Shown here: positions 30,213-30,338 of the stretch, piece by piece
Layout of the letters: the number at the start of each line of letters is the position of its first letter
Position numbering within the stretch: position 1 is the stretch's first letter
Source of the DNA: Planctomycetota bacterium
Lineage (GTDB): Bacteria > Planctomycetota > UBA1135 > UBA2386
Assembly: GCA_947444055.1 (NCBI GenBank)
Contig: CANEYR010000001.1
Span: 62,001 to 126,000, forward strand
Direction of reading: 5' to 3'
Length of the DNA: 64,000 bases
Program-made: the position numbers and the translations under genes
The notes under the pieces: model-generated
What the model was told of the DNA's origin: nothing
Seen by the model: only the letters and a program-made list of their open reading frames with translations
Databases searched by the model: none

Positions 30213-30338
30213 ATGCCACGACGAAGCCGAGCCAAGCCGCGACGGCGCCACGACGACAGTGCAAGCAACGACGAACCGCTCTGTGCCGACTGCGGCTGTT
30301 CGATCTGCTTGCTCCGCCAAACCATCGAGGACGGATAG
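30213..30338 (+). CDS. 41-residue cysteine-rich microprotein
   Basis: An ATG after a perfect AGGAGG opens 41 codons ending in TAG. The first 14 residues are strongly basic (seven Arg plus Lys; [13 protein letters not shown]), then an acidic/polar linker, then C24-x2-C27-x-C29-x2-C32, four cysteines in a pattern suited to a zinc or Fe-S knot, and a short helix-like tail. A basic arm plus Cys knot suggests a nucleic-acid or metal binding microprotein, but no family was recognised. It sits alone between upp and eno. The CGA/CGC/CGG-rich codons resemble the neighbours. Confidence 0.6.

Follow-up and report, generated by a model that had tools for sequence, protein, structure and literature searches.

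The spacer between upp and eno in the window (the whole 64,000-nt stretch of planctomycete DNA analyzed here, part of a 5.35-Mb genome bin that comprises 237 contigs) holds an open reading frame of 41 codons, which raises the question of whether this frame is a gene and, if so, what its product would do. A preliminary description, made from the DNA letters only, had taken it for a likely real gene encoding a Cys-knot microprotein with a basic N-terminus. The features of the locus are as follows:

29270..30106, + strand: upp, uracil phosphoribosyltransferase, upstream neighbour (Pfam UPRTase, 2e-19)
30202..30207, + strand: Shine-Dalgarno sequence AGGAGG, 5 nt 5' of the ATG of the small gene
30213..30338, + strand: very probable small-protein gene, ATG, 41 codons and TAG, with homologues in relatives
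30282..30308, + strand: codons of the conserved motif, C-A-D-C-G-C-S-I-C (Cys24, Gly28, Cys29 and Cys32 invariant in 14 of 14 copies)
30398..30427, + strand: probable eno promoter, TTGCCT - 18 nt - TATCCC, 11 nt 5' of the eno ATG
30439..31698, + strand: eno, enolase, downstream neighbour (Pfam Enolase_N and Enolase_C)

Pfam thus confirms both neighbours and with them the position between upp and eno given earlier. The frame is also open further 5', to an ATG at 30168 that would yield a version of 56 amino acids; this upstream start has no Shine-Dalgarno sequence.

Homologous places were located by an eno DNA search of 60 related genomes, and translation of the DNA upstream of eno in these relatives gave related ORFs at the same place, each with the motif C-x3-G-C-x2-C. 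Profiles from these first relatives found 13 strong copies among 154 genomes of the order. With the final profile we obtained 14 copies in 13 of 34 family genomes (E-values 8e-17 to 5e-8), followed by a clear gap, the next match appearing only at 0.004. Weak profile matches in three further genomes (G020, G031 and G428) were dismissed, as they lacked either a plausible gene or the motif. The profile search of the 154 genomes revealed nothing convincing in the rest of the order outside the family, nor was a convincing copy found in 392 genomes across Planctomycetota, a search whose first pass scored some candidates only, so that distant copies could escape it. Scanning GTDB at one genome per species, with exact motif patterns only and from a six-row alignment, we recovered three loci, all of them known members; as regards a viral or phage origin, no copy was seen in IMG/VR (pattern scan) or in phage records. 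As far as searched, the small protein appears to be confined to one family of uncultured Planctomycetota.

This DNA is rich in long spurious ORFs, and a chance ORF in a G+C-rich spacer has to be considered. However, motif, frame and position are conserved in 12 further genomes, and an ATG ORF with C...GC..C occurs in the spacers of 12 of 12 eno-linked loci versus 1 of 24,000 dinucleotide shuffles, a figure that overstates the difference, because the motif was defined on those same copies. The profile E-values together with the shared position are the stronger argument for a gene. Comparing the six readings of the motif region in a motif-anchored alignment, with expected values from random placement of the same substitutions, we found the top coding score for the annotated frame (38.6 observed; 12.2 expected; mean z 2.6). 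The runner-up, one reverse-strand frame, reached 1.8 and is probably the mirror of the annotated frame; the other frames were near zero. Synonymous variation is seen for Cys (TGC/TGT), Ala (GCC/GCG) and Ser (TCG/TCC/AGC), and G+C content at the third codon position exceeds that at the first and second in 13 of 13 copies compared. We therefore regard a chance ORF as extremely improbable. The claim of a likely real gene is borne out by the homologous frame at the same place in relatives; judged by this comparison, 30213-30338 is almost certainly protein-coding, and we infer that it is translated in the cell. The perfect AGGAGG pointed out earlier is indeed present but is no family property: it precedes the homologous start in only 4 of 13 copies checked (G002, G005a, G023 and the window copy). 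In more than half of the copies a clear Shine-Dalgarno sequence is missing, and the start codons there are consequently less sure.

What the copies share is essentially the motif. Its three Cys and its Gly are present in 14 of 14 copies and Ala25 (window numbering) in 13 of 14. By contrast, the second Cys of the window copy, Cys27, is found in only 9 of 14, the remaining five having F, S, T, A and A. The pattern C-x2-C-x-C-x2-C, as first described, is correct for the window copy but is a special case of the family signature C-x3-G-C-x2-C; conservation in relatives, the lack of which was named earlier as the refuting outcome, holds for the frame and for three Cys but not for the second one. Conservation outside the motif is poor. 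The stretch before it is acidic in most copies, so the basic N-terminus does not characterize the family, and the C-terminal tail is variable, extending in five genomes through the eno promoter element up to the eno start, with its stop within ATGA. A cystine knot needs three interlocked disulfides and hence six Cys; the family has too few (three invariant, four in the window copy), and no hydrophobic export signal is evident in the protein, so that the Cys-knot label is wrong. Structure prediction gave a low-confidence model (mean pLDDT 67.6, pTM 0.29). The product would be cytoplasmic and about 40-75 residues long, with a variable, usually acidic N-terminus, followed by C-[AG]-x-x-G-C-x-x-C and a variable tail.

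The genomic address of the small gene is nearly fixed: 12 of 14 copies lie directly upstream of eno, most of them between upp and eno. Three copies deviate. One (G005a) has eno next to it without upp; another (G022) follows upp, with eno elsewhere in the genome; and the second copy of G005 (Prado171), here G005b, has neither as a neighbour. This last copy, at 5974-6186 of locus L122 (JALORC010000002.1), is located between tgt and a 356-codon ORF, the latter near a gene for isocitrate dehydrogenase (icd); both gene names are our reading of the translated sequence. On account of these three copies the small gene can be separated from upp as well as from eno. Where it is present, the upp-eno spacer measures 232-586 bp, whereas seven loci that lack it have spacers of only 40-96 bp. 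Presence clusters on the enolase tree, requiring 5 changes compared to 10.0 with shuffled labels, and outside the carrying clade (G015, G020) upp and eno are adjacent with no insert, so that a single gain in the spacer followed by losses is the simplest history. The small gene would then have arisen once in the upp-eno spacer of one Planctomycetota family and been lost later in several lines, e.g. G001, G014/G032, G027 and one of the two eno loci of G025.

Three side observations concern these loci. The G025 bin has two upp-eno loci (L016 and L097, on contigs C51 and C26), of which only one has the small gene; either the locus was duplicated or the bin is mixed. In L028 and L031 (G021 and G013), upp-eno spacers of 848-901 bp contain another gene, one resembling a TatD-type DNase; the upp-eno spacer has thus received inserts more than once. 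Finally, record L123 (CAMAUH010000026.1), the same contig as in G002, carries the title Candidatus Kuenenia stuttgartiensis although it groups with a different Planctomycetota genus; it is probably a mislabelled bin.

The position next to eno also suggests a leader peptide, i.e. an upstream ORF that would control eno by translational coupling or by cysteine-dependent attenuation. The twelve copies directly upstream of eno fit this idea, as does the overlap of the ORF stop with the eno start as ATGA in five copies, but that overlap comes from the eno start itself, and two copies (G022, G005b) have no adjacent eno. Consensus scans for promoters and terminators found nothing; it was the comparison of loci that brought out the eno element. 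Allowing one mismatch, CGCTATCC precedes eno in 21 of 30 loci, and the family members with this element include carriers as well as non-carriers of the small gene. TTGCC-N18-TATCCC hence stands just before the eno ATG even in loci that lack the small gene, and such a conserved promoter-like element implies that the eno mRNA probably begins past the motif part of the ORF. Located 11 nt before the eno start, the promoter pair would leave a very short eno 5' leader. The region shows no excess RNA folding (z 0.28), which likewise speaks against a leader, and no Rfam family matches it. We consider a leader peptide very unlikely; the small protein behaves as an independent gene, neither a leader of eno nor a tail of upp.

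No match over cut-off was obtained in Pfam, NCBIfam, PDB or Rfam. Below the cut-offs, weak matches in Pfam, NCBIfam, PHROGs and PDB were mostly to ferredoxins and covered their cluster loop (fdx_plant at 8e-4 in one member; Fer2 at 0.01; PDB 4itk at 0.13), none of them for the window copy. The likeness to the loop of plant-type [2Fe-2S] ferredoxins (Fer2 PF00111; TIGR02008) is nevertheless visible: Cys24, Cys29 and Cys32 form C-x4-C-x2-C in 14 of 14 copies, Ser often follows the middle Cys, and some copies are similar before the loop too. These weak profile matches might indicate a remnant or truncated Fer2 domain. Yet even the best member remains far under the cut-offs (19.1 versus 81.15 bits; 16.2 versus 21). 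The fourth cluster Cys of ferredoxins is placed about 29 residues after the loop, whereas only 9 residues follow Cys32 in the window protein, which lacks it; later Cys in relatives are not conserved, and at half the length there is no room for the rest of the fold. A Fer2 remnant is in our view highly improbable, and we take the likeness to reflect a similar metal-binding loop rather than kinship. Oxidored-like proteins (PF09791, OXLD1 type) have the core CC-x-S-G-C-x2-C, which fits C-x3-G-C-x2-C; this candidate was rejected, as no member matched it in the Pfam scan and nothing exceeded the 24-bit cut-off in 61 genomes. The C(P)XCG zinc-finger proteins of the Haloferax volcanii HVO_0758 type are comparable in being shorter than about 70 residues, cysteine-based and cytoplasmic, and carry two C(P)XCG motifs whose four Cys are all required for folding (PMC10716476). 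Here, in contrast, one residue separates the two CxxC, the second Cys is kept in 9 of 14 copies, and the second motif has no Gly. Our literature search found no paper on this small-protein family; metagenome small-ORF catalogues (e.g. PMC11364881) may list it without a function. It is apparently undescribed so far, ordinary in kind but with a sharp motif.

The three-thiolate loop is the likely working part of the protein and would bind Zn2+, Fe2+ or an iron-sulfur cluster. Because no export signal is visible, one would expect reduced thiols that are available for coordination. With only three invariant Cys, a mononuclear four-ligand site would have no conserved fourth ligand; the second Cys, though not conserved, could supply it, as could a carboxylate or a partner. 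Conserved Cys without an export signal or a conserved fourth ligand could also point to a redox-sensing or thiol-exchange protein, whose three Cys would engage in a disulfide or in reactions with oxidants instead of holding a metal, and the last two conserved Cys do make a CxxC. However, the C-x4-C-x2-C spacing, together with the invariant Gly, is that of loops holding a metal or cluster, and the third Cys is invariant even though a single disulfide does not need it. Thiol redox chemistry therefore seems rather unlikely to us, and we favour metal or iron-sulfur binding over it and over a leader role for eno; a metal-binding role for the small protein is somewhat more probable than its absence. 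As an overall reading, we put a probability of roughly 0.55 on a lineage-restricted, cytoplasmic small-protein gene that was gained once, lost repeatedly and encodes a metal- or cluster-binding loop. A bolder proposal, which we hold to be a long shot, is a new family of stand-alone iron-sulfur or metal small proteins whose conserved content is one three-Cys loop, C-x3-G-C-x2-C, i.e. a minimal ferredoxin-like loop without the ferredoxin, perhaps acting as a dimer or by docking to a partner.

Small-protein genes of uncultured phyla are seldom validated. The present locus offers a clean comparative case, with a lineage-specific gene, a tight Cys motif and a fixed address, where an insert of 200-500 bp is either present or absent between two housekeeping genes; owing to this clear presence or absence, gain and loss can be traced, and the function is testable in vitro. 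Should this loop by itself suffice to hold a cluster or metal, the product would be a very small natural metalloprotein. As a minor observation on the window itself, a 16-bp unit that was not found in the loci compared from all other genomes, ACTCAGGCAGACCGTG, is repeated in three tandem copies at 30349-30396, between the small gene and the eno promoter.
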